From Verrucomicrobiota bacterium (GTDB taxonomy: Bacteria > Verrucomicrobiota > Verrucomicrobiia > Opitutales > UBA953): a stretch of DNA of 64,000 nucleotides. Below, one piece after another: positions 18,933 to 40,394 of the stretch. The position numbers and the translations under genes are program-made. Below the pieces are notes generated by a model, which worked only from the letters and a program-made list of their open reading frames with translations, made no database searches and was not told where the DNA came from. The stretch lies in assembly GCA_015061905.1 (NCBI GenBank), contig SUVQ01000003.1:1-64000 (forward strand). The letters are read 5' to 3'. Position 1 is the first letter of the stretch, and the number at the start of each line of letters is the position of its first letter.

Positions 18933-20201
18933 ATGTTTATCGATTTTTCCGTTGAAAATTTTCGTTCGTTTTCGTCGAGGGTGACGCTCTCGGTGGAAGC
19001 GGTTACCGCGTTTAAAGAAGAGGCTCAGAATGTTGTTGAGCCGAAAAAAGCTTTGAAGCTCTTGAGGAGTGCGGCTGTTTACGGGGCGAATTCGAGCGGA
19101 AAGACAAATCTGGTCTTAGCGATGCTGTATATGAAAGGCATCGTACTAAACTCATCCAAGCACAGTTCTGTCGATAAGCTGAAAGTTGATTCGTGTTTAC
19201 TTTCAGAAGACGGAGAAAAAAGACCGAGTTCATTTGAAATTCGTTTTGTTATTGATGATTTTATATATCGTTACGGGTTCCAGGTAACACGGGATGCGGT
19301 TGTTTCCGAGTGGCTTTTACGTTCGGGTGGCGTTCGCGGGAAAGAATTTATTCTTTTTACTCGGGAGGGGCAGAACGTTTCGGTCGGTGATACATTTTCG
19401 GATGCTAAAGAAGTTGATTTTAGCGAACTGTTGCCAAATGTTCTTTGTCTGTCTTTTTTGGATAATCGCAATAAAGAGGTTGCGAAGGCTGTTGTTGGGC
19501 AATTCAGCAATATTGCACTGTTTTCGGGGGTTATTGAGGAGACCTATCAAGGACAGACGTTGGAAGATATTTTGAATAATCCCGCGAATAAGAGGGCGAT
19601 TCTTAAACTTTTGACGTTGGCGGATGGAAGTATTGTGGATGTGGGGATTCGTCCGATGCCGTTGGGAATATGGGAGCAATTCCCCCGGAAAATTCGAGAT
19701 AAGGTTCCGACTGGAAGTGCCGGAGATATTTTTATCCGGCGACAGGTAATTTCAAAAGACGGAGGCTTGAGGATTATGGATTTTTCGTTGGGAGCACATG
19801 AGTCTGTTGGAACTCAAAAGTTGTTTAATTTGGCAACTCCGTGGTTGAGAAGCTTGGCGCGGGGGAGTGTTGTGTTTGTTGATGAGCTGGAAGCGTCGTT
19901 ACATCCGTTGCTGACCCGTTTTTTGGTTCATTTGTTTAATTCTCCGGAGCTCAATCACAAGAATGCGCAGTTGGTTTTTGTGACACATGACACGAATTTA
20001 TTGACTTACGGCGGTTTCCGTCGCGACCAGATTTGGTTATGCGAAAAACGGGGAGACGGAACCTCGGATCTTTATGCTCTTGCGGAAATTGCAAAGGTTC
20101 GCAAAAACGACAAAATTGAGCGGAATTATTTGCAGGGGAAATACGGTGCGATCCCGTTCTTTGGAGGAATCGATTCGTTTGAGGAATATCAGGTGACGTA
20201 A
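18933..20201 (+). CDS. RloA/AbiLi-like AAA ATPase (COG1106)
   Basis: 422 residues. ABC/SMC-like ATPase of the AAA_15/AAA_21 type: N-terminal MFIDFSVENFRSF, Walker A GANSSGKT (51-58), signature-like LSLGAHESVGT, Walker B FVDELEASLHP (315-325) and switch His VTHD (350-353). In RloAB/AbiL and related two-gene systems this ATPase is thought to sense phage or nucleic-acid signals and control the partner. RloB follows after 2 bp. No Shine-Dalgarno is evident and the leader is very AT-rich. The gene lacks octamers and stands out from its polysaccharide neighbours. Confidence 0.87.
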   Translation: MFIDFSVENFRSFSSRVTLSVEAVTAFKEEAQNVVEPKKALKLLRSAAVYGANSSGKTNLVLAMLYMKGIVLNSSKHSSVDKLKVDSCLLSEDGEKRPSSFEIRFVIDDFIYRYGFQVTRDAVVSEWLLRSGGVRGKEFILFTREGQNVSVGDTFSDAKEVDFSELLPNVLCLSFLDNRNKEVAKAVVGQFSNIALFSGVIEETYQGQTLEDILNNPANKRAILKLLTLADGSIVDVGIRPMPLGIWEQFPRKIRDKVPTGSAGDIFIRRQVISKDGGLRIMDFSLGAHESVGTQKLFNLATPWLRSLARGSVVFVDELEASLHPLLTRFLVHLFNSPELNHKNAQLVFVTHDTNLLTYGGFRRDQIWLCEKRGDGTSDLYALAEIAKVRKNDKIERNYLQGKYGAIPFFGGIDSFEEYQVT

Positions 20202-20203
20202 CA

Positions 20204-20881
20204 ATGGGAAGACCTCAAAAGAAAAGCGATAGAGATAAACCGTGGATGCAAAGGTCGCAAAAGCGGCGTGTCGGGAATCGTCAGCCTCGCGTGCGAATTT
20301 TGCTTGTATGCGAGGATACTAAAAGTTCCGTTTATTATTTTAAAAGAATTCAGGAATTGCTTCCTAGTGGTGTTGTCTTTCTGTGTCCGCGGGGGACGGG
20401 GAGGAATACTCAGTCGTTAATAAACGACGTGGAGAATGTTCGTCAAAGAGAGGAGCGGGTAATTGGCACTCGGTTTGACCAAGTTTGGGTGCTTTTTGAT
20501 AAAGACAGCTTCAGTGATGCGCAATTCGATAATGCCATTCGTTCCGGAGAAGCGAAAGGGTATCGGGTTGCGTGGTCGAATGAATGCTTTGAGTTGTGGT
20601 ATCTCTTGCACTTTCAAGAGCAGTCTTCTTCTGTCGGGAGAGAAAAGATTTATGGAGGGTTAGAGGCGCATCTTGGTGTTAACCATTATGGGAAATTAAA
20701 GGGAGAGGCGGGGAAGTCGATTCATCAAAGGATGGCGGAAGATGCAGAGGGACGAAAACATGCAATTAGGCGTGCCAGAAAATTGGATAAGGAGGCTCGG
20801 GGTGCGTTTCACGGACGAAACCCGGTTACGAAAGTGTATCAACTGTTTGAAGTCCTGGATTCATGGATTACGGGGAATTGA
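20204..20881 (+). CDS. RloB/AbiLii-like protein, Toprim-like effector
   Basis: 225 residues. RloB family: basic N-terminus, LLVCEDTKSS with Glu37, and VWVLFDKDSF with Asp99 and Asp101, an E...DxD arrangement as in Toprim nucleases. C-terminal features are NECFELWYLLHF and basic helices. With RloA it forms the pair known from restriction-linked loci and the lactococcal abortive-infection system AbiL. A nuclease effector role is inferred from the fold, not shown. It is translationally coupled to the ATPase gene. Confidence 0.85.
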   Translation: MGRPQKKSDRDKPWMQRSQKRRVGNRQPRVRILLVCEDTKSSVYYFKRIQELLPSGVVFLCPRGTGRNTQSLINDVENVRQREERVIGTRFDQVWVLFDKDSFSDAQFDNAIRSGEAKGYRVAWSNECFELWYLLHFQEQSSSVGREKIYGGLEAHLGVNHYGKLKGEAGKSIHQRMAEDAEGRKHAIRRARKLDKEARGAFHGRNPVTKVYQLFEVLDSWITGN

Positions 20882-21044: not shown

Positions 21045-22241
21045 CTATTTCCCGATTTGTTCCATCACGACGCGGTAGGCGACTTTGTCGGTCATGTGCG
21101 TTTCGAGATAGCGGCGACCGTTTTCTCCCATTTGCTTGCGTAGCTCGGGAGCGCGGTAGAGCCTGTCGAAATTCGCCTTAAACGCGGGAACGTCTCCGGC
21201 GGGCGACCATAAGCCGGCATTGATGCTTTCCAGGATTTTCCCGTAGTCCGTTGCCGCGTCGAGCGAGGCGAGTACCGGAATTTTCAGATTAAAATACGAG
21301 AGGGTTTTACTCGGAATGTTCGGGATCGTAAAGCGTTCGTTGAGAGAGATGAGCCCGATATCGCACTGCGCGACGAGCTTTTGGTAGTCCTGATACGGAA
21401 TAAAATCTTTTAGAATCGTGTTCGAGAGATTCATTTCCGTAATCATTTTTCGGATACGTGCCTGTTGCACGCCTTTGCCGACAAGCAGAAAAACAACATC
21501 CGGATAGTCCGCTTCGCAGGCTTGGGCGAGCCCGAGAACATTTTCCAGTTTTTGCGGGACGCCCATGTTCCCTCCGAAGATGACGACAAATTTTCCGTCG
21601 ACTCCGTATTTTGCCTTCAAATCCTCTCTCGCGGGAACAAGCGGCTCCACCGTTTGGAAGTTTTCCAAAATGTGGAGTTTTTCCGTCGGCACTTCCGGAT
21701 TGTGTTTGCGGATGTAATCAATATTTCCCTGCGACATGCACCCGATTTTGTCGCAAACGCGATAAAGTTTTTTCTCTTGGCGGCGAAAATGCCAATAGAG
21801 CGGCCACCATTTTTTCATGAAGCCGAGGTCGACCGCATTTTGCGGGAAAATGTCTCGAAGAATCAGATACGTTTTGGCACGGGAACGCTTTTTCATTTTT
21901 GCGACAACGTTCGCAAGTGTAATCGGAGGCGTTGGCGTGATGATGAGATCAAATTTTTCTCCGCGCAAATGCTTGTCGATTGCGCGCTGATAGACAAAAG
22001 GCAACAGAACGTTCGCAATGCCTTTGCGAACGAGGTTTACCCCGAAGAGCGGGAGCGACTTTACCTGAAGTAGTCGAAGATTTTTCTCGATTTCCACCAG
22101 GCGTGTCTCGGGGGCATCGTAAACCGGATTGACGGCGCAGACATCGTGTCCGTTGCGGACAAGTTCTTTGATCAGGGCTCCGTACATATTGGTATTCCCG
22201 TCAAAGCTTAAATTGGAAATGGTAAGGAAAAGGATCTTCAT
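21045..22241 (-). CDS. WbuB-like GT4 glycosyltransferase (probable L-FucNAc transferase)
   Basis: 398 residues from the ATG at 22241. GT-B enzyme with MKILFLTISNLSFDGNTNMYG, YLILRDIFPQNAVDLGF (about 140-157), GGNMGVPQKLENVL (about 225-238) and a C-terminal PSKTLSYFNLKIPVLAS donor-site region. These features resemble WbuB, which transfers L-fucosamine in E. coli O26-type clusters; the FnlABC/WbuC set on this strand at 37-41.5 kb would supply UDP-L-FucNAc. Its leader runs through the left recombinase-type site 75 nt upstream (22317-22343). Confidence 0.85.
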   Translation of the reverse strand: MKILFLTISNLSFDGNTNMYGALIKELVRNGHDVCAVNPVYDAPETRLVEIEKNLRLLQVKSLPLFGVNLVRKGIANVLLPFVYQRAIDKHLRGEKFDLIITPTPPITLANVVAKMKKRSRAKTYLILRDIFPQNAVDLGFMKKWWPLYWHFRRQEKKLYRVCDKIGCMSQGNIDYIRKHNPEVPTEKLHILENFQTVEPLVPAREDLKAKYGVDGKFVVIFGGNMGVPQKLENVLGLAQACEADYPDVVFLLVGKGVQQARIRKMITEMNLSNTILKDFIPYQDYQKLVAQCDIGLISLNERFTIPNIPSKTLSYFNLKIPVLASLDAATDYGKILESINAGLWSPAGDVPAFKANFDRLYRAPELRKQMGENGRRYLETHMTDKVAYRVVMEQIGK

Positions 22242-22316
22242 GGCGAATTGGCTGCTGGCGCTTGCCTGTTGGGATTTGACCATTTGCCGACTACTGACCG
22301 ACGAATTAGCATCAGA

Positions 22317-22343
22317 GCCTAACGAATTACGCATTCGGTAGGC
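22317..22343 (+). repeat. Recombinase-type inverted site, pair 1 left
   Basis: 27 bp: arm GCCTAACGAAT, spacer TACGC, arm ATTCGGTAGGC. The arms are inverted copies of each other with one mismatch. It pairs with 22562-22588. See the tyrosine recombinase at 42500. Confidence 0.85.
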
Positions 22344-22561
22344 AAGGTTTATTTAGTCCGGGAAAGCTCTTAATTCTAAGGCTATTTCTCCCCAGTTCTC
22401 TCTTTTTTTCCAAAGAATTTTGGGAACGAGTTCGAATTCACGACGGACTTTTCTCAATGCGTTCAATGTGCGATTCGAGCGGATATCGTAGTAACAATGA
22501 GCCCTACGGCATCCTTTGATTAAGTGACGTCACCATCGTCTCTTTTTTGTCTAAGCCCGAA
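22344..22561. promoter_or_regulatory. 218-bp divergent intergenic segment between inverted sites
   Basis: Must hold the start signals for the minus-strand WbuB-like gene and/or the plus-strand gene at 22610, since both coding regions lie just outside. I see no strong -35/-10 pair. A perfect palindrome GTGACGTCAC lies at 22524-22533 and could be an operator. It is predicted to invert. Confidence 0.5.
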
Positions 22562-22588
22562 GCCTACCGAATGCGTAATTCGTTAAGC
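22562..22588 (-). repeat. Recombinase-type inverted site, pair 1 right
   Basis: Read on the minus strand: arm GCTTAACGAAT, spacer TACGC, arm ATTCGGTAGGC. It is identical to the left site except one arm base, and in opposite orientation. It ends 21 nt before the ATG at 22610. Confidence 0.85.
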
Positions 22589-22609
22589 TTTCTAAACTGT
22601 CAAAAATTT

Positions 22610-23845
22610 ATGAAAGTTTTAGTAACAGGCGGAGCGAAGGTTCGTGATGGTTTGGAGAACGCGGAGGCAAGGGCCCATAACCTTTCGACGCGTCCGAAAG
22701 TTCTTTTTGTTGCGACGGTTTCTAGATTTGTTTCCGGTTTTTTAAAAGCTCAAGTTGATTGGTTTTTAGTAAAAGGATGGGAGGTTCATGTCGCTTCTCA
22801 CGGAACAGAAGATTTTCCTGTTGGCGTTCGGCATATAGAGGTGCCTTTTGCCCGAAATCCGATATCTCTAAATAATATTCTGGCATTTTTTAAATTGCGT
22901 CGCTTAATTAAAATTGAGCGGTATTCCTTAATCTCCTGTCATACTCCTGTCGGAGGAGCTCTTTCCCGCCTTGCAGCTTTCGGCTTGCGTGGTTCCGATG
23001 GTGTGAAGGTTGTTTATACTCCGCATGGATTTCATTTTTTTCACGGAGCGTCATTAAAAAATTGGATTATCTATTTTTGCGGAGAGTGGATTCTCGCTGG
23101 AATCTCTGATGCTTTGATTACGATTGTTAGAGAAGATTTTAAGATGACGCAGGATTTTCGTTTTCCCTGCAAGCGTATCTACCTTACAAACGGAATTGGT
23201 ATTGAGACGAGTCGACTAAATGCTGTTGTGAATTGTGAAAAACAAGCTCTTCGTAGAGAATTCGGGTATTCGGAAAATGCTCTTATTCTCATTTATGCGG
23301 CGGAGTTTATTGCGCGGAAAAATCATGCACTCATTGTTAAGGCCGTTCCGCGGATCAAGGAGAAATTTCCTCATCTCAAAATCCTTTTTGCTGGGCGTGG
23401 AGCGCTAGAATGCGAGATAAAGGTTTTAGCTAAAAATTTGAGCGTTGATACATACGTCGACTTCCTTGGTTATCGTAGGGACTTACCGAAGTTAATAAAA
23501 CTTAGCGATGTCGGTATTTCTTCGAGTCGCCAGGAGGGGTTACCGATGAATATCGCAGAGGAAATGTACTTGGGGTTGCCGATTGTCGCTTCAAGTGTGC
23601 GCGGGAATCGAGATCTTGTTATAAATAATGAGACAGGGTTGCTTTTCAAGTCCGATGATGTCTCCGATTTTGCCAAAAAAGCGGAGCAAATCTTGGGGGA
23701 CGCTATGATGCGTAAGGCAATGGGAATTGCAGGTAAAAAGCGGGCGGAAGAATTTACAATCGAACGTGTCATCCAAGACATCACTCAAATTTACGAAGGC
23801 GTTTTACGAGGAAACCCAGTTCAAAGAAAGGATTCCGCAAAGTGA
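22610..23845 (+). CDS. GT4-type glycosyltransferase with a grafted epimerase start
   Basis: 411 residues. The first nine, MKVLVTGGA, and the 21-nt leader are those of an NAD-epimerase gene (same as 43624) and do not belong to a glycosyltransferase. The GT domain begins around residue 29 (PKVLFVATVSRFVSGFLKAQ). It is PglA/WbnK-like: TPHGFHFFHG, YAAEFIARKNHALIVKA, ISSSRQEGLPMNIAEEMYLG with E-x7-E. This is a fusion made by recombination at the 5' end that gives the gene the translation start of another family. The stop overlaps the GTG start of the regulator (GTGA). AT-rich, no octamers. Confidence 0.85.
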   Translation: MKVLVTGGAKVRDGLENAEARAHNLSTRPKVLFVATVSRFVSGFLKAQVDWFLVKGWEVHVASHGTEDFPVGVRHIEVPFARNPISLNNILAFFKLRRLIKIERYSLISCHTPVGGALSRLAAFGLRGSDGVKVVYTPHGFHFFHGASLKNWIIYFCGEWILAGISDALITIVREDFKMTQDFRFPCKRIYLTNGIGIETSRLNAVVNCEKQALRREFGYSENALILIYAAEFIARKNHALIVKAVPRIKEKFPHLKILFAGRGALECEIKVLAKNLSVDTYVDFLGYRRDLPKLIKLSDVGISSSRQEGLPMNIAEEMYLGLPIVASSVRGNRDLVINNETGLLFKSDDVSDFAKKAEQILGDAMMRKAMGIAGKKRAEEFTIERVIQDITQIYEGVLRGNPVQRKDSAK

Positions 23846-24378
23846 AGCATGAATTTGCTGTAAAGCGTGTTCTTGTCCCCGTGATTCCCGAGTGGGAATT
23901 GGCGGTGCTCGATGTGTTTGTGCGGGCGGCGGCGATGTTCGGTTTCCGCAAGTCCGTCGCCTTGGTTTACGGCGTACTTTATTGTTCCCGCGAGCCGCTT
24001 TCGGCGCAGGAAATTCAGGAACGGCTTCAAATATCGCGCGGTTCGACCGTCGAGGCGCTTTTGTTTTTGCGTCGGTTGGGTGCGGCGCGGGTTTGCCTCA
24101 AAATCGGGGAACGCCGCGATTATTTCACGGCGGAAACGGATCTGAAGAAATTTGTTCAAGGCTTTTTGAAGGAAATCCTCGTTCCCGCGCTGGAAAAAGC
24201 GGACATCCGTCTCGCGCAAGCCGAAGAATCCGCCGGAAAAAATTCTGCCGTTCCCGCCGCCGATGCCGCGTTTGCGCGTTCCCGCGTCGCCGAACTCACG
24301 CTCTGGAAATCCCGCCTCACCGAAGCCCTCCCGCTTCTCGACGGGCTTTTAAACACCAATGGAGGTTTCCGCCGATGA
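23842..24378 (+). CDS. GbsR/MarR-like winged-helix regulator, copy 1
   Basis: 178 residues from a GTG overlapping the upstream stop. Wing-helix core: EWELAVLDVFVRAAAMFGF, SAQEIQERLQISRGSTVEA (recognition helix, about 53-71), LGAARVCLKIGERRDYF (wing), then a helical dimerisation region as in GbsR-type regulators. It is probably a local transcription factor for the polysaccharide operons. A second copy at 47498, about 95% identical over the shared ~160 residues, lies 24 kb away and also precedes a sugar operon; N-terminal ends differ. It contains several octamer copies. Confidence 0.82.
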   Translation: MKHEFAVKRVLVPVIPEWELAVLDVFVRAAAMFGFRKSVALVYGVLYCSREPLSAQEIQERLQISRGSTVEALLFLRRLGAARVCLKIGERRDYFTAETDLKKFVQGFLKEILVPALEKADIRLAQAEESAGKNSAVPAADAAFARSRVAELTLWKSRLTEALPLLDGLLNTNGGFRR

Positions 24379-24410
24379 CGCAAATTTCTACAGATTTCCG
24401 GGCGGTTTTT

Positions 24411-25532
24411 TTACGGCAATCCAAGCAGGAATCGGCGGAAAAACGGATCTGCAACATGAAAGACGTTGCTTTCTTTTTCGATGATTCCTTGCTCCGTCAA
24501 GACCGTCGCCGCTTTTTGAGTTGCGGAAACGCTTCCGAGGGCAAACTTTTTGATGAATGCTACGGAGAAAATTTCTTTGCCGTTTCGAGCAATAGCGGCG
24601 ACAAGCTTTTTTTGTTGCAGGGAAAGACGGTCGTAGAGCTCGGTGTAGTAATCTTTTTTAAGGGTGATAACCCAATCAACGCCCCGGGAAATCGCGCTTT
24701 CGGAAACAGCGGACTCGTCGCCGTTTTTGACGATTTGCCAAATTTCGGCGGCGAGCAGTTGTATGTAGTAGGGCACGCCGTCGGCTTCATTGATGATTTT
24801 TTGCGCAGCTTCCGAACTCAGCGTTATTCCGGATTTTTTGAAGCGGCGCTTCAGAAAATCGACGGTTTCCGTAAGCGGGAGTTTGGAAATTCTCATTGTC
24901 GCCGCCGAGTTAAAAAACGGGCGGGAACGCCCCGTAAACATTGCGTTCAGCAGGTGCGTTTTGCTTCCGAGAAACAGGTAGGAGACGTTTTTCCTGTGTT
25001 GAATGACGCTTCGCAACAAAGCCTCGAAGCGGATTTTTTCAAAACGGGTAATTTCCTGAAACTCATCAAAAACAATAACGAGGCGCTTTTTCTCGCTTGC
25101 CACGCGCTCCGGAAGTCCCAATACGGCTTCGAGAGCTTCCGGGCTTGGGATTGTTTCCGGAAAATCCAATTCCAAAGAGGCTTTCCCGTCGGCGGAAAGC
25201 GTCAGTTTCGGGCGAGTTCCGCCAAGCCAATCCGCAAGTTTCGCAACGAGTTTTTTCCAACCGCGTTGCTTTTCGAGAATGCGTTGCGTGTAAATACGGC
25301 AAAAATCCCGAACATCGTAAATCGGCAGAAAGTCGAAATAAACACAGTCAATTCCTTGTTTTTCCAGCTCCGCCATTGCTCGGAAAACAAGCGAGGTTTT
25401 TCCGTAGCGGCGCGGAGCAAACAGCACCAAATTGTTGCCGCCGGCGAGCGTTTCGACAATACGAGACGTTTCTTCTTTGCGGTCAAAAAAATATTCTCCG
25501 CGCACCACACTACCGAATTGAAAAGGATTCAT
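24411..25532 (-). CDS. AAA ATPase of the archaeal-type/DUF234-like family
   Basis: 373 residues from the ATG at 25532 (MNPFQFGSVVRGEYFFDR). Walker A APRRYGKTSL (about 40-49), Walker B RLVIVFDEFQEI (about 142-153), sensor region SYLFLGSKTHLL, and a C-terminal winged-helix-like region (KLVAAIARNGKEIFS onward). The family is frequent in archaea and in anaerobic bacteria; its role is unknown, sometimes linked to mobile DNA. It is convergent with regulator copy 1 (32 bp gap) and precedes flippase 2 in the opposite direction. Octamer copies at about 24925. Confidence 0.85.
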   Translation of the reverse strand: MNPFQFGSVVRGEYFFDRKEETSRIVETLAGGNNLVLFAPRRYGKTSLVFRAMAELEKQGIDCVYFDFLPIYDVRDFCRIYTQRILEKQRGWKKLVAKLADWLGGTRPKLTLSADGKASLELDFPETIPSPEALEAVLGLPERVASEKKRLVIVFDEFQEITRFEKIRFEALLRSVIQHRKNVSYLFLGSKTHLLNAMFTGRSRPFFNSAATMRISKLPLTETVDFLKRRFKKSGITLSSEAAQKIINEADGVPYYIQLLAAEIWQIVKNGDESAVSESAISRGVDWVITLKKDYYTELYDRLSLQQKKLVAAIARNGKEIFSVAFIKKFALGSVSATQKAATVLTEQGIIEKESNVFHVADPFFRRFLLGLP

Positions 25533-25745
25533 GGAGGGAATCTTCCGCCCCAATCGTTCACTTGTCAATTTCGTAATTATGCCTCGAAGCATAATGCCTT
25601 GAAGCGTAGTCAAACGGACTCGCTCTTGGTGTCCTCAGGCTCCTCCGAAGAAGAAGTTTTTAACCGCTTTGCGGGAACGGCTTTTGCCGGCGGGAAAAAT
25701 CCTGCGTTCAGCGGAAAACTTCATTCGCGTTCATCTGTGCGATAC

Positions 25746-25798
25746 ACGGGAACGCATTCTTTAATCTTTAATCTCTAATCTTTCACCTCTCTCCTTTC
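25746..25798 (+). repeat. Pyrimidine-rich leader shared by two flippase genes, copy 2
   Basis: Near-identical to 6607-6659: ACGGGAACGCATTC, CTTTAAT units and CT-rich run to the ATG at 25799. No Shine-Dalgarno. Confidence 0.85.
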
Positions 25799-27358
25799 AT
25801 GCCGAAGGCAGCGACAGTTTCCGAGAACAACAAGCGTATCGCCAAGAATACGCTGATGCTCTATGTGAAAATGGGCGTGATGATGCTCGTTTCGCTCTAC
25901 ACGTCGCGCGTGGTCTTGCTGACGCTCGGCGTGGACGACTTTGGGATCTACAATGTTGTCGGTGGAGTGGTCGTGCTGTTTTCGTTTTTGAATGCGGCGA
26001 TGTCCTCGGCGACACAGCGCTTTCTGAATTTCGAGCTCGGAAAAAAAGATCTTGTCCAAGTCGGACGTGTGTTCTCTATGTCTCTGACGGTGCACTTCTG
26101 TATCGCGGGGCTTGTTCTTTTTTTAGCGGAAACGGTCGGGCTCTGGTTTTTAAATGCGGAGCTGAACATTCCCGCAGATCGCATGGCGGCGGCCAATTGG
26201 GTTTACCAGTTTTCGGTTGCGACAACTCTTTTGGGGATTCTCCTCGTTCCGTACAATGCGACAATCATTGCTCACGAACGCATGGGCTTCTACGCGTGGA
26301 CGAGCATTGTGAGGGGTCTGCTTCTTTTGGGAATTGTTTATCTGCTTGTTATCGGAAACATTGATAAACTCATCCTCTACGCGGGCTTGGTTTTCGCAGT
26401 TAACGCGTTGATGCAAATTGTCTACATCGCCTATTGCAAACATGCGTTCCCGCAAACGGCGATTTACAAACCGTTTCGCGACAAAAAACTTTTCCGGGAG
26501 CTCATTTCTTTTTCCGGATGGTCGCTTTTCGGCGGTGTGGCGGATATGTGCAATTCCCAGGGCATTAACATGGTGATGAATATTTTCTGCGGCGTTGCCG
26601 TCAACGCTGCCATGGGAATTGCCAATCAGGTGAACGCCGCCGTTTATCAGTTCGTTTCCAATTTCCAAATTGCATTCAATCCTCAACTCGTAAAATCCTA
26701 CGCTTCAAACGAGCGGGAACGTTTTATTTCTCTGATTTTAAGGACATCGAAATTTTCGTTCTTTTTGACCTTCTTTCTTGTTCTGCCGATTTGCTTAAAC
26801 ATCGATTTTATTTTGGAGCTTTGGCTTGGCGACGTTCCCGAATTTACTGCTGAATTTGTCCAACTGACGTTGTTCTACTCTTTGATTAGTTCGATTTCCG
26901 CACCGCTTTGGATGTCTGTTCAAGCCACGGGAGAAATCCGTAATTATCAGCTGATTGTCAGTTTTTTGATCTTGGTAAATTTGCCGTTCGCGTATGTTGC
27001 TTTAAAACTTGGGTTCCCGCCGACATGGGCTTTGGGGATTCGTGTCGCGATGAATTTTTTGACAACGCTTTGGCGGGTTTTCTATTTGCGCGGGAAAATC
27101 GGTTTGCCGGTCGGGAAATTCCTTCGCGGCGTTATTTTCAAAAGCTTTTTCGTCGGAGCTTTGGCAAGCCTGCTTCCTTTGTTTGTTTTTCAAAATATCC
27201 ACAATGCGTGGACTCAGCTCATCGCCTCGGGAACGTGCGCGTGTTTGAGCACGGTGGTGTTTGTTTGGTTTTTCGGATTTGAGAAAAACGAACGGACTTT
27301 CTTTTCAACGTTTTTAGTCGGACGACTTCCTTTTCTTCAAGTTCTAACAAAACGATAA
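25799..27358 (+). CDS. Wzx-type polysaccharide flippase 2
   Basis: 519 residues, about 12-14 transmembrane segments, MOP-superfamily polysaccharide transporter. LYTSRVVLLTLGVDDFGIYN (about 33-52) is the usual N-terminal motif. The leader and first 25 codons are almost the same as in flippase 1, after which similarity drops to that of distant paralogues. Opens block II and is followed 3 bp later by the cytidylyltransferase fusion, so it likely exports the repeat unit carrying that decoration. Confidence 0.9.
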   Translation: MPKAATVSENNKRIAKNTLMLYVKMGVMMLVSLYTSRVVLLTLGVDDFGIYNVVGGVVVLFSFLNAAMSSATQRFLNFELGKKDLVQVGRVFSMSLTVHFCIAGLVLFLAETVGLWFLNAELNIPADRMAAANWVYQFSVATTLLGILLVPYNATIIAHERMGFYAWTSIVRGLLLLGIVYLLVIGNIDKLILYAGLVFAVNALMQIVYIAYCKHAFPQTAIYKPFRDKKLFRELISFSGWSLFGGVADMCNSQGINMVMNIFCGVAVNAAMGIANQVNAAVYQFVSNFQIAFNPQLVKSYASNERERFISLILRTSKFSFFLTFFLVLPICLNIDFILELWLGDVPEFTAEFVQLTLFYSLISSISAPLWMSVQATGEIRNYQLIVSFLILVNLPFAYVALKLGFPPTWALGIRVAMNFLTTLWRVFYLRGKIGLPVGKFLRGVIFKSFFVGALASLLPLFVFQNIHNAWTQLIASGTCACLSTVVFVWFFGFEKNERTFFSTFLVGRLPFLQVLTKR

Positions 27359-27361
27359 ATT

Positions 27362-29167
27362 ATGCAGGCGATAATCTTAGCGGCAGGAATGGGCAAACGC
27401 TTGGGCGAACTGACAAGCGGGAACACAAAATGCATGGTCAAGGTAAACGGGATTCCGTTAATCGATCGGATGCTTTCTCAGCTTTCAAAATTGAATCTTT
27501 CGAAAATCGTTTTAGTCGTCGGATATCAGGCGGAAAACCTGAAAGCACACGTCGGGAACGCAATCGCGGGAACGCCGATTGTTTACGTCGAAAATCCGAT
27601 TTACGACAAGACGAACAATATTTATTCGCTTGCCCTCGCCAAGGATTTCCTCGTTAAGGAAGACACGCTTTTGCTCGAATCTGATCTCATCGTCGAAGAT
27701 GCCGTTCTCAATAAAATTCTCGAAAATCCGTTCCCGAATCTTGCCTTGGTTTCCAAGTATGAAACATGGATGGACGGCACAATGGTGCGCATGAACGATG
27801 ATTGCGACATCGTGAGTTTCATCCCGAAATCTGCATTCAAATATTCGGAAACGGACACCTACTACAAGACGGTAAACATTTACAAATTCAGCGCGGAGTT
27901 TTCCCGCTCGCATTACGTTCCGTTCCTCGAAGCTTACACCAAGGCACTCGGGAACAACGAATACTATGAGCAGGTTCTTCGCGTTATCACGATGCTCGAC
28001 AAAGTTGAGCTCAAGGCGCTTCCGCTCGACGGTGAAAACTGGTATGAAATCGACGACGTGCAGGATTTGGATATCGCCGAAGCGATTTTTGCCGAAAACG
28101 ATCAACGCCTGAAAAAATACTTCTGCCGCTACGGCGGATACTGGCGGTTCCCGCGCTTGCTGGATTTTTGCTATTTGGTAAATCCTTACTTCCCGTCTCC
28201 GCGCATGCGTGATGAATTGCGGGCAAATTTCGACGTGCTTTTGGCGGAATATCCGTCCGGCATGGGCGTGAATTCCCTGCTCGCAGGGAAATATTTCGGC
28301 GTTCGCCAAAGTTCAATCGTCGTCGGCAACGGCGCGGCGGAACTCATTAAGAGTCTCATGGAATCGTTCCCGGGAAAACTCGGCGTAACGTTCCCGACCT
28401 TTGAAGAATATCCGAATCGCCGCGAGAAATCAGAGGTGGAAGTTTTTGTTCCCGCCAATCCTGATTTTTCCTACTCGGCGGAAGATTTAAAAAACTTTTT
28501 TGCCGACAAAGGCATTTCTGCGCTTTTGCTCGTTAATCCGGACAATCCGTCGGGAAATTTTATTTCAAAAAGCGAAATCCTCGACCTTGCCGACTGGGCT
28601 CGGGAACGCAAAATCCGCCTCGTCGTCGATGAGTCTTTTGTCGATTTCGCAATCGGCGACGACAATACCTTGCTACGAAACGATATTCTCGACGCATTCC
28701 CGGAACTCATCGTCATGAAATCTATTTCGAAATCCTACGGCGTTCCCGGACTGCGTTTGGGTGTCTTGGCATCGTCTGACGAAGCGTTGATTTCTCGCAT
28801 GAAGAAAGATGTCGCTATATGGAATATCAATTCGTTTGCCGAGTTTTACATGCAGATTTTCGGAAAATACGAAGGAGACTATCGCAAGGCTTGCAAAAAG
28901 TTTATCTCCGAGCGGGAACGTTTTCAAAAACGGCTTTCAGAAATTCCGTTCCTGCGCGTAATCCCGTCGCAGGCGAATTATTTCCTTTGCGAAATTACGG
29001 AAAGATTTACGGCGGGAGAGTTGACGGCAAAGCTTTTAAACGAGGCGGACATTCTCATCAAAGATTGCTCAACGAAAGCGGCTTTTGACGGGAAAAACTA
29101 CATTCGCCTTGCCGTTCGCGATACCGCAGATAACGACAAACTCGTCGACACCTTGAAAGGGTTTTAA
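27362..29167 (+). CDS. Nucleotidyltransferase::class I aminotransferase fusion
   Basis: 601 residues. Domain 1 (about 1-240) is a sugar-phosphate/LicC-like nucleotidyltransferase: LAAGMGKRL (6-14) with conserved Lys23, ESDLIVED as metal-binding region, and EIDDVQDLDIAEAI near its end. Domain 2 (about 250-601) is a fold-type I PLP enzyme of the HisC/CobD group: NPDNPSGNF, DESFVDF, and SISKSYGVPGLRLG with PLP-binding Lys457. CobD-like enzymes can be aminotransferases or phosphoamino-acid decarboxylases, so the fusion may make and activate a phospho-amine or phospho-amino acid as its CDP form. It resembles PntC-type fusions in plan, but PntC has a class V transaminase. LicD at 31229 is the probable user of the product. 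Confidence 0.85.
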   Translation: MQAIILAAGMGKRLGELTSGNTKCMVKVNGIPLIDRMLSQLSKLNLSKIVLVVGYQAENLKAHVGNAIAGTPIVYVENPIYDKTNNIYSLALAKDFLVKEDTLLLESDLIVEDAVLNKILENPFPNLALVSKYETWMDGTMVRMNDDCDIVSFIPKSAFKYSETDTYYKTVNIYKFSAEFSRSHYVPFLEAYTKALGNNEYYEQVLRVITMLDKVELKALPLDGENWYEIDDVQDLDIAEAIFAENDQRLKKYFCRYGGYWRFPRLLDFCYLVNPYFPSPRMRDELRANFDVLLAEYPSGMGVNSLLAGKYFGVRQSSIVVGNGAAELIKSLMESFPGKLGVTFPTFEEYPNRREKSEVEVFVPANPDFSYSAEDLKNFFADKGISALLLVNPDNPSGNFISKSEILDLADWARERKIRLVVDESFVDFAIGDDNTLLRNDILDAFPELIVMKSISKSYGVPGLRLGVLASSDEALISRMKKDVAIWNINSFAEFYMQIFGKYEGDYRKACKKFISERERFQKRLSEIPFLRVIPSQANYFLCEITERFTAGELTAKLLNEADILIKDCSTKAAFDGKNYIRLAVRDTADNDKLVDTLKGF

Positions 29168-29170
29168 ACA

Positions 29171-30214
29171 ATGGAAATTCCCGGAAAAACACTCTGTATT
29201 TGCGGTGGAGGTTCGCTCGGTCATGTAATCGCGGGAACGGCGGCGGCGCGCGGATTCTGCGTGAACTTGCTTTCCGGACGGGCAGAACAATGGCACGACG
29301 AAATTACGATTCATGCCTGCGACGGAAAAGTTTTTTCCGGAAATCTTTCCAAAAAATCTGCCTCGGCAAGCGACGTTATTCCGGACGCGGATTTCGTTCT
29401 ACTCTGCGTTCCCGGGTATTTGATTCGTGAGACGCTTGAAAAAGTGGCACCCCATCTTCACACGGGAACGCCTGTCGGTTCCGTCGTTTCGAGTTCCGGA
29501 TTTTTCTTTGCGGCGCAAGAAGTTTTGCCTGCGGGAACGCCGCTTTTCGGATTCCAGCGTGTTCCCTATATCGCACGTGTGTCCGAATACGGGAAATCGG
29601 CGGATTTGCTTGGATATAAGAACGAAATTCGTTTGGCGACAAAAGATTTTCCGTCTGCCGACAGCCAAGAAGCATTTCGCCAAAAAATTGAAAAACTTTT
29701 GGATACGCCGACTGCGCTTCTTAAATCATTTTGGGATGCGGCTCTTACAAACTCTAATCCGCTTCTTCATCCGTGCCGCCTTTACGGCATGTGGAACGAT
29801 TGGGACGGAAAAACACCTTACGCGCAGCACACACTTTTTTACGAAGATTGGGATGATTTCTCATCGGAAATTCTTATCGCTGCAGACGAAGAATTTTTTG
29901 CGCTTTTGAAAAAACTTCCCGTAACGCCGGGCGCAATTCCGCGTCTGCCGGATTACTACGAATGCGGGAACGCATCGGAGCTGACACGTAAGCTGAAAAG
30001 CATTCCCGCTTTCCGGAAAATTCGCGCGCCGATGCTTGCTGTTCCCGGCGGATTTATCCCCGACGTGAAGAACCGCTACTTTACCGAAGACATTCCCTAC
30101 GGAATGAAAATTATCAAACAACTTGCACAACAAAATAACGTGGAAACACCGACGATAAATAGAGTGCTTAATTGGGGGCTTCAATTTTTTCCCCCCCCCC
30201 CATTTCGAAAATAA
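29171..30214 (+). CDS. Octopine/nopaline (opine) dehydrogenase-like protein
   Basis: 347 residues. Rossmann start LCICGGGSLGHVIAG (8-22) with GxGxxG-like motif, and a C-terminal NAD/NADP octopine dehydrogenase domain with LLHPCRLYGMW and the substrate-site GAIPRLPDYYE region. Opine dehydrogenases reductively condense a 2-oxo acid with an amino-acid amine. It ends in a C11 tract (30191-30201) just before the stop. One extra C would extend the protein by about 28 residues to a stop that overlaps the ATG of the next gene (ATGA), so the present form may be a phase variant. Follows the fusion gene after 3 bp. Confidence 0.82.
   Translation: MEIPGKTLCICGGGSLGHVIAGTAAARGFCVNLLSGRAEQWHDEITIHACDGKVFSGNLSKKSASASDVIPDADFVLLCVPGYLIRETLEKVAPHLHTGTPVGSVVSSSGFFFAAQEVLPAGTPLFGFQRVPYIARVSEYGKSADLLGYKNEIRLATKDFPSADSQEAFRQKIEKLLDTPTALLKSFWDAALTNSNPLLHPCRLYGMWNDWDGKTPYAQHTLFYEDWDDFSSEILIAADEEFFALLKKLPVTPGAIPRLPDYYECGNASELTRKLKSIPAFRKIRAPMLAVPGGFIPDVKNRYFTEDIPYGMKIIKQLAQQNNVETPTINRVLNWGLQFFPPPPFRK
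30191..30201 (+). repeat. Poly-C tract, 11 nt, at the end of the opine dehydrogenase gene
   Basis: Eleven C encoding PPPP, four codons before the stop. C12 (or C9) reads on without stops to TGA at 30295-30297, overlapping the next start codon; C10 ends two codons later than now. Confidence 0.92.
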
Positions 30215-30293
30215 AAAGTAATGCGATACGGCTATTTGCAGTTCATAGGCTTTACCGCGACGCGTCCTTTACGCTTGAGGAAAGGAGCGCGGC

Positions 30294-31232
30294 ATGAAGC
30301 TTATCGATTTTTCGGAAATAGCGGCGTTAAAAATTTCGCCGAAGGATTGTTTCGCGTGGGTGAAAGATGCGTTTTTGATCAAGCCGAAATCGCTTCTGCC
30401 GCCGAAAATCAGCACCAAGCAGGAGGGGAATGTTTTCTTTAATACAATGCCGTGTCTGATTCCGCAGATTGAACGCTTCGGCGTGAAAGAAGTTTCCCGC
30501 TTCCCGAATCGCGTTCCCGCACTGAAAAGCGATTTGATGCTTTATGATGCCAAGAGCGGAGAGCTTCTGTCCGTTATGGACGCGACTTGGATTACCGCGA
30601 TGCGCACCGGCGCCGTTGCGGCTCTTGCCGTTAAGACATTTCGCAGAAAAGACGCGAAAATTTACTCGTTTGTCGGCTTAGGAAATACGGCTCGGGCAAC
30701 GTTACTTTGCTTGCTTGAAAATACGGATACGCAAGAAAGACAGACGATTCGCCTTCTAAAATACAAAGGGCAGGAAAAACTTTTCGCAGAACGATTTTCA
30801 GGCTACGGGAACGTGTGTTTCGAATTTGTCGATTCGATGCGGGAGCTGATTGTCGGTGCGGATGTCGTTGTTTCTTGCGTGACGGCGTTCGATTCTCCCG
30901 TCGCTAAGGACGAATGGTTTAAGGAAGGCGTGCTCGTCGTTCCCGTGCATACGAGAGGATTTCAAAACTGCGATTTGTTTTTTGACAAAGTTTTTGCCGA
31001 CGATCGCGGGCATGTGGAAGGTTTTAAGTATTTTTCAAAATTTAAACAATTCGGAGAGCTTTCGGACGTGCTTCTCGGAAAAATTCCCGGCCGCGAATCC
31101 GAACGGGAACGTATCTTGGCTTACAACATAGGTATCGCTCTCCATGACGTTTATTTCGCGTCAAAAATCTACGAGCGTTCCCGCGCAGAAGAACACAATT
31201 TAATCACAAAACAGGAAAAATTTTGGGTATGA
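30294..31232 (+). CDS. Ornithine cyclodeaminase/mu-crystallin family protein
   Basis: 312 residues. Family features: KEVSRFPNRVPALKSDLMLYD (about 65-85, in parts), SVMDATWITAMRTGA (93-107), NAD-binding FVGLGNTARA (126-135), and DVVVSCVTAFDSPV. Members deaminate and cyclise ornithine or act as opine- or imino-acid reductases (for example SbnB). Adjacent to the opine dehydrogenase-like gene, a role in making an unusual amino acid or opine is likely. Shine-Dalgarno GAAAGGAG upstream. Its stop overlaps the LicD start (ATGA). Confidence 0.87.
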   Translation: MKLIDFSEIAALKISPKDCFAWVKDAFLIKPKSLLPPKISTKQEGNVFFNTMPCLIPQIERFGVKEVSRFPNRVPALKSDLMLYDAKSGELLSVMDATWITAMRTGAVAALAVKTFRRKDAKIYSFVGLGNTARATLLCLLENTDTQERQTIRLLKYKGQEKLFAERFSGYGNVCFEFVDSMRELIVGADVVVSCVTAFDSPVAKDEWFKEGVLVVPVHTRGFQNCDLFFDKVFADDRGHVEGFKYFSKFKQFGELSDVLLGKIPGRESERERILAYNIGIALHDVYFASKIYERSRAEEHNLITKQEKFWV

Positions 31233-32047
31233 GAGAAATAACACACGAAGAACTGAAACAAATTCAGCTCGGAATCTTGGACAAAGTTCACGATTTCTGC
31301 GAAAAAAACGGAATTACCTATTTCCTTTCGAGCGGAACTCTTATCGGTGCCGTGCGTCATAAGGGCTACATCCCTTGGGACGACGATCTCGACCTCTACA
31401 TGCCGCGCTCCGATTACGATAAATTCATCAAACTGTTTTCCGCCAACTCCCCGGAACACACAAAACTCCTCTCCCTCGAAACCGATAAAAAGTACTATTA
31501 TGCGTTTGCAAAGGTTATAGATCTTCGAACGGAAATGATAGAGCCGTCCTTGCCCGAAAAAATAGGAGTTTTCATTGATATATTCCCGTTGGAGAATGTT
31601 CCGTCTGGGAATTTTGCATGTTTGGTGTGGTATTGGATATGCTTGTTCCTCATTCAAGCACAAGCAAGTGTGTGCCTTTCTCAAACACGGAACTGGATAT
31701 GGCTTGTCAGATCTCGAACCTCACTAACGACTATGATAAAAGCTGTTCTATTTCCATTCTTGTGGCTATTCCCGATAGATTTGTTTGGTAAGCTGTATGG
31801 GATTTTTGTGAGGTTAATTCCACCTAGCACATATGTCTACAATATGAGTGCAGGAATAGGAATACACGGGCGTTTTCGCAACTCTGTCGTTGAGCGTTCG
31901 GTCGATATTGAATTTGAGGGAAAACTCTATAAGACAATGCATGGCTTTCGAGAGTATCTTTATGTGACTTATGGCGATTTTTCTGTATTGCCCCCACCGG
32001 AGAAAAGAGTGTTTGGGCATGGCTTTCCTGCGTGGTGGAAGAGCTAG
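31229..32047 (+). CDS. LicD family phosphotransferase
   Basis: 272 residues from the ATG at 31229 overlapping the previous stop. LicD signature: YFLSSGTLIGAVRHKGYIPW (31-50) and WDDDLDLYM with D51, D52, D53 and D55. LicD enzymes move phosphocholine or a similar phospho-group from a CDP carrier to a sugar on the cell surface polymer. The CDP-carrier is probably made by the fusion enzyme at 27362, as in LicC/LicD pairs. A hydrophobic segment follows at about 130-150. AT-rich downstream half. Last gene of the presumed decoration module. Confidence 0.9.
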   Translation: MREITHEELKQIQLGILDKVHDFCEKNGITYFLSSGTLIGAVRHKGYIPWDDDLDLYMPRSDYDKFIKLFSANSPEHTKLLSLETDKKYYYAFAKVIDLRTEMIEPSLPEKIGVFIDIFPLENVPSGNFACLVWYWICLFLIQAQASVCLSQTRNWIWLVRSRTSLTTMIKAVLFPFLWLFPIDLFGKLYGIFVRLIPPSTYVYNMSAGIGIHGRFRNSVVERSVDIEFEGKLYKTMHGFREYLYVTYGDFSVLPPPEKRVFGHGFPAWWKS

Positions 32048-32087
32048 TGCTGTATCTAATAAGGAGCTTTCTTAAGAGCCATTCTTA

Positions 32088-32096
32088 CCCCCCCCC
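32088..32096 (+). repeat. Poly-C tract, 9 nt, intergenic
   Basis: Nine C between the LicD stop and the glycosyltransferase at 32138. It is 41 nt upstream of that start, so its length could affect a promoter or leader but not a reading frame. Confidence 0.85.
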
Positions 32097-32137
32097 GCGA
32101 ATGCTTTAATTAAAAATTTTTAGGAGGTTGATAATCT

Positions 32138-33256
32138 ATGAAAATAACTTTCGTTTCTAATTTTTTGAATCATCACCAAACGCCGGTGGCGGACGAGCTT
32201 TATCGGAGATTGGGAGATGGGTATCGCTTTATTTCGACGACGGAGACGCCAGAATCTTTTTTGAAGAGCGGGTATCCGGATTGTCGGGCGTTCCCGTATA
32301 ATATTTTGGCTTACGAAAGTGAGGAGAAGCGGGGGGAGGCGCAGCGATTTGTCGATGAGGCGGATGCGGTGATTATCGGCTCTGCGCCGTATTCTTGGGT
32401 GGAAAAGCGCGTGGAGGCAGGGAAGCAGACGTTCATTTATTCGGAGCGATGGTTTAAGCGCGTGCCGAGAAATTATTTTTCGCCGGGTTTGTGGAAATCC
32501 CTGTTCAAATATCACTTCCGGTGGAGCAGAAAGCCGAACGTTTCGGTGCTTTGTGCGAGTGCGTTTTTGCCGAAGGATTTGGATTTGCTTGGGCTTTATA
32601 AAGGGCGGCGCTACAAATGGGGATATTTTACGGAGTGCCCGAAATTGGATATTTCGGAGATTATCGCAAAGCGAAATCGGGAGCGCATCGATATATTTTG
32701 GTGTGCCCGGTTTATTGGCTGGAAGCGTTGGGATTTGCCGATTCTTTTGGCAGGACATTTAAAACGCGCCGGATACAAATTTCGTCTCCGCATGGCGGGA
32801 ACGGGCGCAGATTGGGAAAAGGCAAAGCGATTGGTAGAGAGACAAGGTGTGGGCGATTGTGTGAAGTTGATAGGAACCCTTCCCAATGCGGAGATTCTGG
32901 AGAAAATGCGGGAAAGCAGTGTTTTTCTTTTTACCTCGAATCGCCAGGAAGGGTGGGGAGCCGTGCTTAATGAAGCAATGGGGAGCGGGTGTGCCTGCGT
33001 CGTCGGAAACGAGATAGGTTCTGCTCCGTATCTTATCAAAGACGGCGAAAACGGTTTTCTGTTTAAGTCTTGCAACTTGGAGGACTTAAAGAAAAAGGTT
33101 CGTCTTCTGCTGGATGATGTTGCGTTGCGGGAACGCATTTCTGTCGCGGCTTACAGGACAATGCAGAATGAGTGGAGTCCTAGGAATGTCGCTTCTCAAT
33201 TTCTTTCATTAAATGAGAATTTAACTCCAAAGAACGGTGTTTGTTCTAAATCTTAA
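32138..33256 (+). CDS. GT4-type glycosyltransferase
   Basis: 372 residues, start preceded by TTAGGAGG. GT-B fold: MKITFVSNFLNHHQTPVADE (acceptor loop), FWCARFIGWKRWDLPILLAG (about 188-207), MAGTGADWEKAKRL, LFTSNRQEGWGAVLNEAMGSG with E-x7-E (about 268-288). Probably adds a block II sugar. It lies between the LicD module and the EpsG-type polymerase (10-bp gap). Confidence 0.87.
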   Translation: MKITFVSNFLNHHQTPVADELYRRLGDGYRFISTTETPESFLKSGYPDCRAFPYNILAYESEEKRGEAQRFVDEADAVIIGSAPYSWVEKRVEAGKQTFIYSERWFKRVPRNYFSPGLWKSLFKYHFRWSRKPNVSVLCASAFLPKDLDLLGLYKGRRYKWGYFTECPKLDISEIIAKRNRERIDIFWCARFIGWKRWDLPILLAGHLKRAGYKFRLRMAGTGADWEKAKRLVERQGVGDCVKLIGTLPNAEILEKMRESSVFLFTSNRQEGWGAVLNEAMGSGCACVVGNEIGSAPYLIKDGENGFLFKSCNLEDLKKKVRLLLDDVALRERISVAAYRTMQNEWSPRNVASQFLSLNENLTPKNGVCSKS

Positions 33257-33266
33257 AAGATAAAAT

Positions 33267-34367
33267 ATGGTTCAAATAGTCCTTATCTTAATTGCATGTT
33301 TATCGGTATTTGTTTTTCCGAGCTCTTTTTCGGAGGGGAAGAAGCGCGCGTGTGTGATAGCATTGGTGATGTTTCTTTGTTTTTTGATAGGAGGATTGCG
33401 TCACGAAGCAGTTGGCGCGGACACTATTTCTTACAGGTTTTGGTTTGAGCGAGTTGAGTTGCAGTCTTGGGGGGAAATTTTTTCGGGGCTGTTTACTTCA
33501 TGGGGTGCGGAGGACAGAGTTCGAGATCCGCTTTATGCGCTTTATACAAAGACATTCCAAATTTTTTCGACGAACTATCGGGCATTTATGTTTTTTGTTT
33601 TGGGATGCTTTTATTTGCCGTTTGCGCGGTGGCTTTATAAATACGTTTTGAGTTTCGACGGTTTAATTCTTGCATTCGTATTTTTCTTAACGATGTTTTT
33701 TCCGTTTGTGATGACGGGATACCGCCAAACGTTGGCACTTGCAGTATGTTTGGTCGCGTATGATTTTATTGTAAAGAGGAAGCTTGGTTGGTTCTTATTG
33801 TTCATGGCGGTTGCTGTGTTGTTTCATAAGAGTGCGGCGGTATTCTTGCCTTTTTATTTTCTTTCGAGGATAAAGCAAACATCGCTCGTTTTGTGGGTTG
33901 CTTTATTGGCATTTCCCATAGTTTTTTACTTTAGGACTCAGTTTGCGGTTTTTCTTGCAGGAATCGCAGCCGACGAAAATTATATGAATTATGCGCTGGG
34001 AGAAGGGGAACTTGGGGCTCCGGTGAATTTTACTTTGCTATTTTTAGTAGTAGCACTTTTTTCTGCAATAATGTCTTCTCCGACGTGTCGGAGCCTGCCG
34101 GACTCGCGACCCTATTTTGTTGCGGTTGCATTGGCTCTCTTATTTTTACCGTTGCCGTGGCTTAATCCTGTGCTCATGCGTGTGGTCATGTATTATGCCG
34201 TATTTTTGCATCTATGCCTTCCGGCAATTGGTCAATCATGGGAACGAAGAGCTTCCGGAATGGGGCGAACGATGGTGCTTGTTTCTGTCGTTACCGTGAT
34301 TGCTTTTACATTTCTTCGAGGAGGAGCGTTTTTCTTCATGTGGGAGCATGTTCCCGGACACTACTAA
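33267..34367 (+). CDS. EpsG-type polysaccharide polymerase
   Basis: 366 residues, about ten transmembrane helices. The loop GGLRHEAVGADTISYRFWF (about 47-65) corresponds to the 'R..vGtDt..Y' signature of EpsG family proteins, which act as Wzy-like polymerases. It would join block II repeat units exported by flippase 2. AT-rich, without octamers, so probably imported. Confidence 0.85.
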   Translation: MVQIVLILIACLSVFVFPSSFSEGKKRACVIALVMFLCFLIGGLRHEAVGADTISYRFWFERVELQSWGEIFSGLFTSWGAEDRVRDPLYALYTKTFQIFSTNYRAFMFFVLGCFYLPFARWLYKYVLSFDGLILAFVFFLTMFFPFVMTGYRQTLALAVCLVAYDFIVKRKLGWFLLFMAVAVLFHKSAAVFLPFYFLSRIKQTSLVLWVALLAFPIVFYFRTQFAVFLAGIAADENYMNYALGEGELGAPVNFTLLFLVVALFSAIMSSPTCRSLPDSRPYFVAVALALLFLPLPWLNPVLMRVVMYYAVFLHLCLPAIGQSWERRASGMGRTMVLVSVVTVIAFTFLRGGAFFFMWEHVPGHY

Positions 34368-34382
34368 GCGAAAGGTTGTACT

Positions 34383-35600: not shown

Positions 35601-35647
35601 TTTCACAAACTTATATTGGTGGTATTTGTGAAATTTGTGGGAGGAAG

Positions 35648-36976: not shown

Positions 36977-36997
36977 TAATTGCCGGTCGGAGAGAGG

Positions 36998-37408
36998 TTA
37001 GTTCCCGGCGGGTAGCAGGTCGATGTCTTGGAAGGGGAGGTAGGGACCGGGTTTGATTTCGAGGATGGCGGTATCGGGTTCGAGAACGGTGAAGGAATGC
37101 CATTCGTCGGGAAGGATTTCGGCGATGAGATTTCCGCTTTCGCGGGAGAGAATATGGGATTCGCGGACGCTCCCGTCGTCGTTGTAGATTTTCAATTCGA
37201 GTGCTCCTGCAAGCATGACGAAGGTTTCTTTTTTCGGAGGGTGCAAATGCCGGTGAATCGGCATGAGCGTTCCCGGCTGGAGTGAGTTCACGAGCTTGTG
37301 GACGTTTTCGTCCATCGTTTCGTGGAGATTGTAGTTCATGCGCAGACGCGGGCTTGCCTTGGCTTGTGCGTGAACGTCGTCGAGGATTTGTTGTGAAATG
37401 ATTTTCAT
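36998..37408 (-). CDS. wbuC: WbuC family cupin metalloprotein
   Basis: 136 residues. Cupin fold with metal-binding HRHLHPPKKE (52-61) and the WbuC-type N-terminus with RLRMNYNLHE and the phrase MPIHRHLHPPKKETF. WbuC is found beside FnlABC in L-FucNAc-containing O-antigen clusters; its function is not established. It is the last gene of the minus-strand FnlA-FnlB-(GxxExxY)-FnlC-WbuC unit. Confidence 0.9.
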   Translation of the reverse strand: MKIISQQILDDVHAQAKASPRLRMNYNLHETMDENVHKLVNSLQPGTLMPIHRHLHPPKKETFVMLAGALELKIYNDDGSVRESHILSRESGNLIAEILPDEWHSFTVLEPDTAILEIKPGPYLPFQDIDLLPAGN

Positions 37409-37426
37409 GGTTACGCTTTTTTATTC

Positions 37427-37489
37427 TCACGCAGATCGCGCAGATAGACGCCGATTTTTTATCTGAGTTATTTGAGAAATCTGTGTGAG
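37427..37489 (+). repeat. CTCACGCAGAT-type interspersed repeat
   Basis: CTCACGCAGATCGCGCAGATAG-like sequence and an inverted part (ATCTGTGTGAG) fill the spacer between wbuC and fnlC. Related copies are in the other spacers of this operon (38694, 39135, 40395-40475). Confidence 0.7.
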
Positions 37490-37508
37490 ATAAATCGGGA
37501 GGTGTTGT

Positions 37509-38684: not shown

Positions 38685-38698
38685 GGATGTCGATTTTT

Positions 38699-38709
38699 CT
38701 CACGCAGAT
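38699..38709 (+). repeat. Inverted repeat beside the GxxExxY gene, downstream copy
   Basis: CTCACGCAGAT at 38699-38709, with related sequence to about 38728. The inverted partner is at 39157-39167, so the pair brackets the GxxExxY gene. Confidence 0.75.
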
Positions 38710-38732
38710 TTTGCAGATATCCGCAGGTTTTA

Positions 38733-39119: not shown

Positions 39120-39156
39120 GTTCTTTCTTTTAAGTGAAATCTGCGAGCTTTGCGAT

Positions 39157-39167: not shown

Positions 39168-39179
39168 CTTAACCGAGAA

Positions 39180-40382: not shown

Positions 40383-40394
40383 ATCTTCTTTTTT

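Follow-up and report, generated by a model that had tools for sequence, protein, structure and literature searches.

Does the short DNA segment between two divergent glycosyltransferase genes of a ruminant-gut Opitutales bacterium (Verrucomicrobiota) turn over, and would this change the surface polysaccharide that the cell makes? The window, i.e. the whole stretch of DNA analysed here, is 64,000 nucleotides in length. Within it, two 28-nt arms at 22316–22343 and 22562–22589 lie 218 nt apart in inverted orientation and match at 27 of 28 bp (96% complementary). The initial annotation had described inverted copies matching at 26 of 27 bp around the 218 bp, and the repeat thus stands and is slightly longer. 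Each site is an imperfect 11-bp arm pair that flanks a 5-bp spacer, GCCTAACGAAT-TACGC-ATTCGGTAGGC. It had been likened to the crossover site of a tyrosine recombinase; the 11-5-11 layout is confirmed, and spacers are matched in every pair found. The features of this locus, termed switch 1, are as follows.

21045–22241, minus strand: glycosyltransferase of the GT4 type; its counterparts in the relatives G004 and G005 close the FnlABC-type operon
22316–22343, plus strand: L1, left site of switch 1, AGCCTAACGAAT-TACGC-ATTCGGTAGGC, inverted match to R1 at 27/28 bp
22344–22561, no strand: putative invertible segment 1, 218 bp, with a 58-codon open frame (22356–22529, minus strand)
22562–22589, minus strand: R1, right site of switch 1, spacer TACGC as in L1, inverted orientation
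22590–22647, plus strand: conserved R leader, 5′ UTR and first codons (10 protein letters, not shown), common to R2 and relatives
22610–23845, plus strand: glycosyltransferase (GT4 type), which opens operon R1; its N-terminal codons are common to an epimerase gene

Both flanking genes are of the GT4 type and divergent, in agreement with the initial annotation, which had placed the sites in the leaders of two outward-facing glycosyltransferase genes; but the most likely start of the left gene is 22241, outside the site, which gives this gene a leader of ~75 nt. On the right, 20 nt separate the site from the gene start at 22610. The 58-codon frame of segment 1 has no Pfam match and no relative in the genus. 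The idea that segment 1 is a reduced copy of the segment with the recombinase, described below, was rejected, as the similarity stops at the ends.

A search of the genome with the switch 1 stretch reveals more copies at 41518–41550 and 43574–43650. These belong to a second inverted pair, 19 kb away, which is absent from the initial annotation and has arms as in switch 1 but the spacer TTCCC instead of TACGC. When inverted pairs of comparable spacing within the window are ranked, the two switches score 26 and 25 and the next real pair 16; the highest score in 25 Markov-shuffled windows is 19. The second pair, switch 2, encloses a recombinase gene as well as a gene for an IS200-type transposase.

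41517–41545, plus strand: L2, left site of switch 2, spacer TTCCC
41765–42289, minus strand: IS200/REP-associated (Y1_Tnp) transposase within segment 2, probably a hitch-hiker
42500–43552, minus strand: tyrosine recombinase (PF00589), proposed invertase of both switches, enclosed by L2 and R2
43576–43604, minus strand: R2, right site of switch 2, spacer TTCCC, inverted orientation
43590–43618, minus strand: possible weak promoter of the recombinase gene, TTTGACA (in the outer R leader)-16 bp-GAATTT (within the site), seen also in G004 and G005 and in weaker form in G001

The recombinase has 350 residues, and its Phage_integrase domain scores 41.5 bits against a Pfam cut-off of 27.1. Alignment of orthologues shows that R211, K238, R297, H320 and Y330 are retained and that the first His of the HxxR motif is Asp294. 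Searching the PDB by sequence gave no match; a predicted model of low confidence (pTM 0.42) has folds that match tyrosine recombinases, e.g. the Tn1549, lambda and Xer enzymes. The nearest relatives of the protein are in the same genus, and the named records are Opitutales bacteria of goat rectum, water deer rectum and water buffalo colon. The transposase gene has imperfect inverted repeats on either side (41659–41692 and 42322–42355), reminiscent of REP-like elements with their transposase.

The recombinase cassette is phylogenetically conserved. Orthologues enclosed by an inverted pair are present in G004 (97% identical), G005 (73%), G001 (70%) and G002 (about 55%), the frame is intact in all five species, and the spacer of the cassette is always TTCCC in this genome and in the four other species of the genus. 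In G002 the cassette has 39-bp perfect repeats. An orthologue in G006 and a second copy in G001 are without flanking sites.

Other site pairs are found away from the recombinase gene. A third pair of this genome is on contig C16, at 85712 and 85995, with the spacer TACTC. It occupies 85712–86015 of that contig (L071:7711–8018), between a Sel1-repeat gene and a small gene that by sequence is an XRE-type regulator, beside threonine synthase; the regulator frame has an apparent early stop in this genome. Orthologous loci are L082:6238–6485 and L083:6619–6791, and the spacer in G005 is TTCTC. A pair with spacer TGCAA in G002 (contig C150, L084:2432–3139) has inverted, diverged copies of one several-hundred-base flank on both sides. 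Furthermore, G004 has a shorter inverted pair 1.8 kb apart (contig C7, L080:6222 and 8060) with spacer TCCCT, and a lone site with the same spacer is present on contig C3 of G005.

Within every pair found the spacers are equal and inverted, and between pairs they vary: TACGC, TTCCC, TACTC (C16 of this genome and G007), TTCTC (the C16-orthologous locus of G005) and TGCAA (G002). As the C16 locus has TACTC here and TTCTC in G005, and is matched in each, both spacers of an orthologous pair have changed together. Tyrosine recombinases require an identical spacer in both partner sites. Since the spacers of switch 1 and switch 2 differ, recombination between the two switches should be prevented, and the layout predicts that flipping is exclusive to spacer-matched pairs.

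The linked recombinase, conservation in the genus and the within-pair spacers together strongly support invertible sites of the tyrosine-recombinase type between outward-facing polysaccharide operons. The reading of the locus as a tyrosine-recombinase inversion switch for alternative surface polysaccharides is given a probability of roughly 0.8, from sequence analysis. It rests on a linked recombinase that is flanked by the same type of site, on the conserved arrangement and on spacers that are matched within pairs only. The recombinase would bind the 11-bp arms, recombine inverted sites with matching 5-bp spacers and turn over the intervening DNA; with TACGC as the mark of switch 1 and TTCCC that of switch 2, each would flip independently. 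Points against this reading are that all assemblies have one orientation, that the catalytic His of HxxR is replaced by Asp294, and that segment 1 has no recombinase, so that its inversion needs an enzyme that acts in trans. The sequence itself gives the sites, the matched spacers, the link to the recombinase, conservation and the operon contents; from these we infer actual inversion, the enzyme that acts on switch 1, promoter function and the phenotype.

The genes that would be controlled form long operons, with an L operon on one side of each switch and an R operon on the other.

22610–36976, plus strand: operon R1, with glycosyltransferases, a regulator-like gene (23842–24378), a MatE-type flippase (25799–27358), LicD and an EpsG-type polymerase (33267–34367)
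36998–41502, minus strand: operon L2, with an FnlA-like dehydratase (40483–41502), a WbcJ/FnlB-like reductase (39180–40397), a gene at 38733–39119, a UDP-GlcNAc 2-epimerase (37509–38684) and DUF6016 (36998–37408)
43624–61192, plus strand: operon R2, with an epimerase remnant, UDP-glucose dehydrogenase, glycosyltransferases, a regulator-like gene (47498–48019), a Wzx-type gene (52602–54098) and a Wzy-type gene (57721–58995)

Operons R1 and R2 each have their own flippase-type and polymerase-type genes. They share 76 bp of site plus leader, which include the first codons of an epimerase fused to different genes. The remnant at 43624–43809 has 61 codons of this epimerase, the first of which are those of the shared R leader, and the gene is intact in G001. 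In G004 and G005 the FnlABC-type operon runs straight into the glycosyltransferase that is found here to the left of switch 1. Compared with these genomes, 14.7 kb are cleanly inserted here between the FnlABC-type operon and the glycosyltransferase; the insertion contains operon R1 and has switch 1 at its front end. A site-bounded insertion of operon R1 was considered and rejected, as there is no site at the right border (36976–36998).

Several other properties of these operons were observed. The small regulator-like genes at 23842–24378 and 47498–48019, one in each R operon, are 90% identical and are also present in the R operons of three relatives; that at 47498–48019 has no Pfam match. UpxY and UpxZ of Bacteroides set a hierarchy between operons, and by analogy the regulator-like genes may do the same here. 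An open reading frame at 23892–25778 was discarded as a single gene, because its start overlaps the real gene 23842–24378 in a different frame. At 18933–20881 an AAA_21 ATPase gene is followed by an RloB-like gene, possibly an anti-phage pair inserted among the polysaccharide genes. The frame at 55055–55828 is an apparent chimera of a GT2 N-terminal half and an epimerase C-terminal part, the latter 82% identical to that of 45112–46170.

How inversion might alter expression depends on where the promoter is. The candidate motifs are listed below.

22340–22346, minus strand: candidate −35 CTTGCCT at the inner edge of L1; this position is kept in 6/6 L-type sites
22316–22321, minus strand: candidate −10 TAGGCT in the L1 outer arm, separated from the −35 by 18 bp and directed at gene 21045–22241
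22584–22589, plus strand: −10-like TAAGCT in the R1 outer arm, without a −35 in the assembled orientation
41542–41548, minus strand: candidate −35 CTTGCTT at the inner edge of L2, the same L-type place
41518–41523, minus strand: candidate −10 TAGGCT in the L2 outer arm, 15 nt from the FnlA-like start codon
43598–43603, plus strand: −10-like TAAGCT in the R2 outer arm

In the outward direction, CTTG lies at the inner edge of each of the six L-type sites and is followed after 18 bp by the outer-arm hexamer TAGGCT or TATGCT. The 25 nt upstream of CTTG show, for the most part, no relation from one lineage to another. CTTG is absent from all R-type sites, where AAAG or GAAG is present instead and the outer −10-like hexamer is kept. 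The tRNA promoters of this genome have the form CTTG[CA]..-17-.AT..T. Scoring used a matrix from the 11 tRNA promoters only, since a de novo search by expectation maximisation failed to settle on anything promoter-like and was set aside, and an iterated matrix drifted. By this matrix the G002 sequence CTTGCCA-18-TATGCT is near consensus (14.3, matched by 0 of about 4000 background stretches). L1 has a modest score of 7.9, which 2.5% of background stretches reach, and scores of at least 7.5 occur at 1.3 sites per kb per strand. At L2 the best-scoring alignment is another one (5.5), and at R2 a competing outward promoter, CTTACCG-18-CTTTCT, scores 8.1. The pattern CTTGC-N4-CGAAT-N5-ATTCG-KTANGC occurs at five places among 273 genomes of the order, and each of these is an L-type site of this genus. 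Most flanking operons have their start codon 14–20 nt from the site; this leaves no room outside, and a promoter must therefore span the site into the segment. A whole sigma-70 promoter was sought in segment 1, and none was found by consensus and none that is strong by the tRNA-derived matrix.

These data suggest a split promoter in addition to the inversion switch, with the −35 in the segment, a −10 kept by each operon and the site as the spacer; judged from sequence, the odds of this are about even. The −35 CTTGC would lie at the inner edge of one segment end, the site would act as an 18-bp promoter spacer, and a −10-like hexamer would be present in both outer arms. In the assembled orientation a complete promoter would then face left in both switches, so that gene 21045–22241 and the FnlABC-type operon (36998–41502) would be on and operons R1 (22610–36976) and R2 (43624–61192) low. 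Once inverted, the segment would present its −35 to the opposite operon, which would reverse this state, and the cell would switch its surface polysaccharide. The suggestion in the initial annotation that inversion swaps which gene is supplied with a promoter fits this outcome, but the promoter seems not to be wholly in the segment: the −35 alone would be inside, with a −10 in each outer arm. The layout also predicts that a recombination site which doubles as promoter spacer has its length fixed by both jobs.

The modest promoter scores in the window leave some room, well short of an even chance, for an ordinary inversion switch, in which the sites invert but CTTGC/TAGGCT is not a promoter; a whole promoter would be inside the segment, or transcription would come by read-through from the recombinase gene or from an outside promoter. 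There is a rightward candidate outside L1 (TTTGCCG-17-TAGCAT, 22283–22312) and there are weak ones inside segment 1, the recombinase and transposase genes read towards the FnlABC operon, which makes read-through possible, and segments of the C16 type are without the split form. However, the two scans of segment 1 revealed no strong promoter, the position of CTTG is conserved while its neighbouring bases are not, and start codons crowd the sites.

The remaining alternatives concern the inversion itself. Perhaps the sites and the shared R leader serve mainly to swap whole polysaccharide operons between strains, with inversion as a by-product. The 76 bp common to R1 and R2, with epimerase codons joined to different genes, and the clean insertion of operon R1, one end of which has switch 1, are as expected from this, but the other end of the insertion has no site, the sites occur as inverted pairs, and the different spacers of R1 and R2 would hinder direct exchange; we regard this as unlikely. 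The pairs might also be static, the borders of an ancient mobile cassette that was carried by its recombinase and has ceased to invert, with segment 1 as a shrunken leftover. The opposite orientation was sought among relatives and not found, all five recombinase cassettes and the orthologous C16/C42 segments having one orientation, and segment 1 has no recombinase and is unlike the recombinase segment beyond its ends. A fossil is nevertheless rather improbable: spacers are matched in pairs and jointly changed between orthologous pairs, the arms are near-perfectly identical and the recombinase frame is intact in five species. As to a chance palindrome, or one related to transcription such as a terminator or regulator site, the arms are indeed palindromic and located in leaders, but scores far above those of shuffled windows, matched spacers and recombinase linkage in five species make this very hard to sustain.

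The proposed inversion switch has partial counterparts in other bacteria. In Akkermansia muciniphila, the cps1 inverton has inverted repeats upstream of a capsule locus, and both reads and PCR show the two orientations, with the capsule ON or OFF (PMC13343947); the phylum of Akkermansia is described as rich in such invertible elements (PMC13343947; see also PMC11892184). The present bacterium is of the same phylum and also has inverted repeats next to a capsule locus, and the demonstrated Akkermansia switch speaks in favour of the one proposed here. The Akkermansia repeat motif, CGGATT..AATCCG, differs from the CGAAT-N5-ATTCG found here, and the Akkermansia paper (PMC13343947) names no recombinase. 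The present locus has two linked switches, each between divergent operons, and one of them holds the recombinase gene.

The initial annotation had drawn a comparison with capsule promoters of Bacteroides, and this holds for one of the two B. fragilis systems (PMC4747536, PMC3090145). Tsr19 (BF2766) is a tyrosine recombinase that acts on promoters of polysaccharide and surface genes, inverting one nearby and another at a distance; its gene is near, not inside, the invertible DNA, and host phylum and sites are other than those here. For the main capsule promoters the enzyme is instead Mpi/FinA, a serine recombinase that acts at many loci (PMC4747536, PMC3090145). That system resembles the present locus, as proposed, in that invertible promoters precede several capsule operons that contain wzx and wzy, but the enzyme linked here is a tyrosine recombinase, and the spacers are specific to each pair. 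An invertible segment that encloses the recombinase gene has been proposed earlier for Providencia stuartii, a putative fimbrial switch of 844 bp; it is near a fimbrial locus and has 14-bp imperfect repeats, unlike the polysaccharide locus described here (PMC5903667).

Inversion switching as such is thus already known, and what seems to be different here is a flipping site in the middle of a promoter. A search of the literature library used here found no paper on such switches in Opitutales. The full arrangement, i.e. a capsule switch with a site-split promoter, a recombinase inside one segment and switches kept apart by private 5-bp spacers, we hold to be evenly poised. There is almost no genetics of the Opitutales of the ruminant gut. 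If the proposal is true, these bacteria switch their surface polysaccharides as do Bacteroides and Akkermansia, which bears on phage resistance and on contact with the host.
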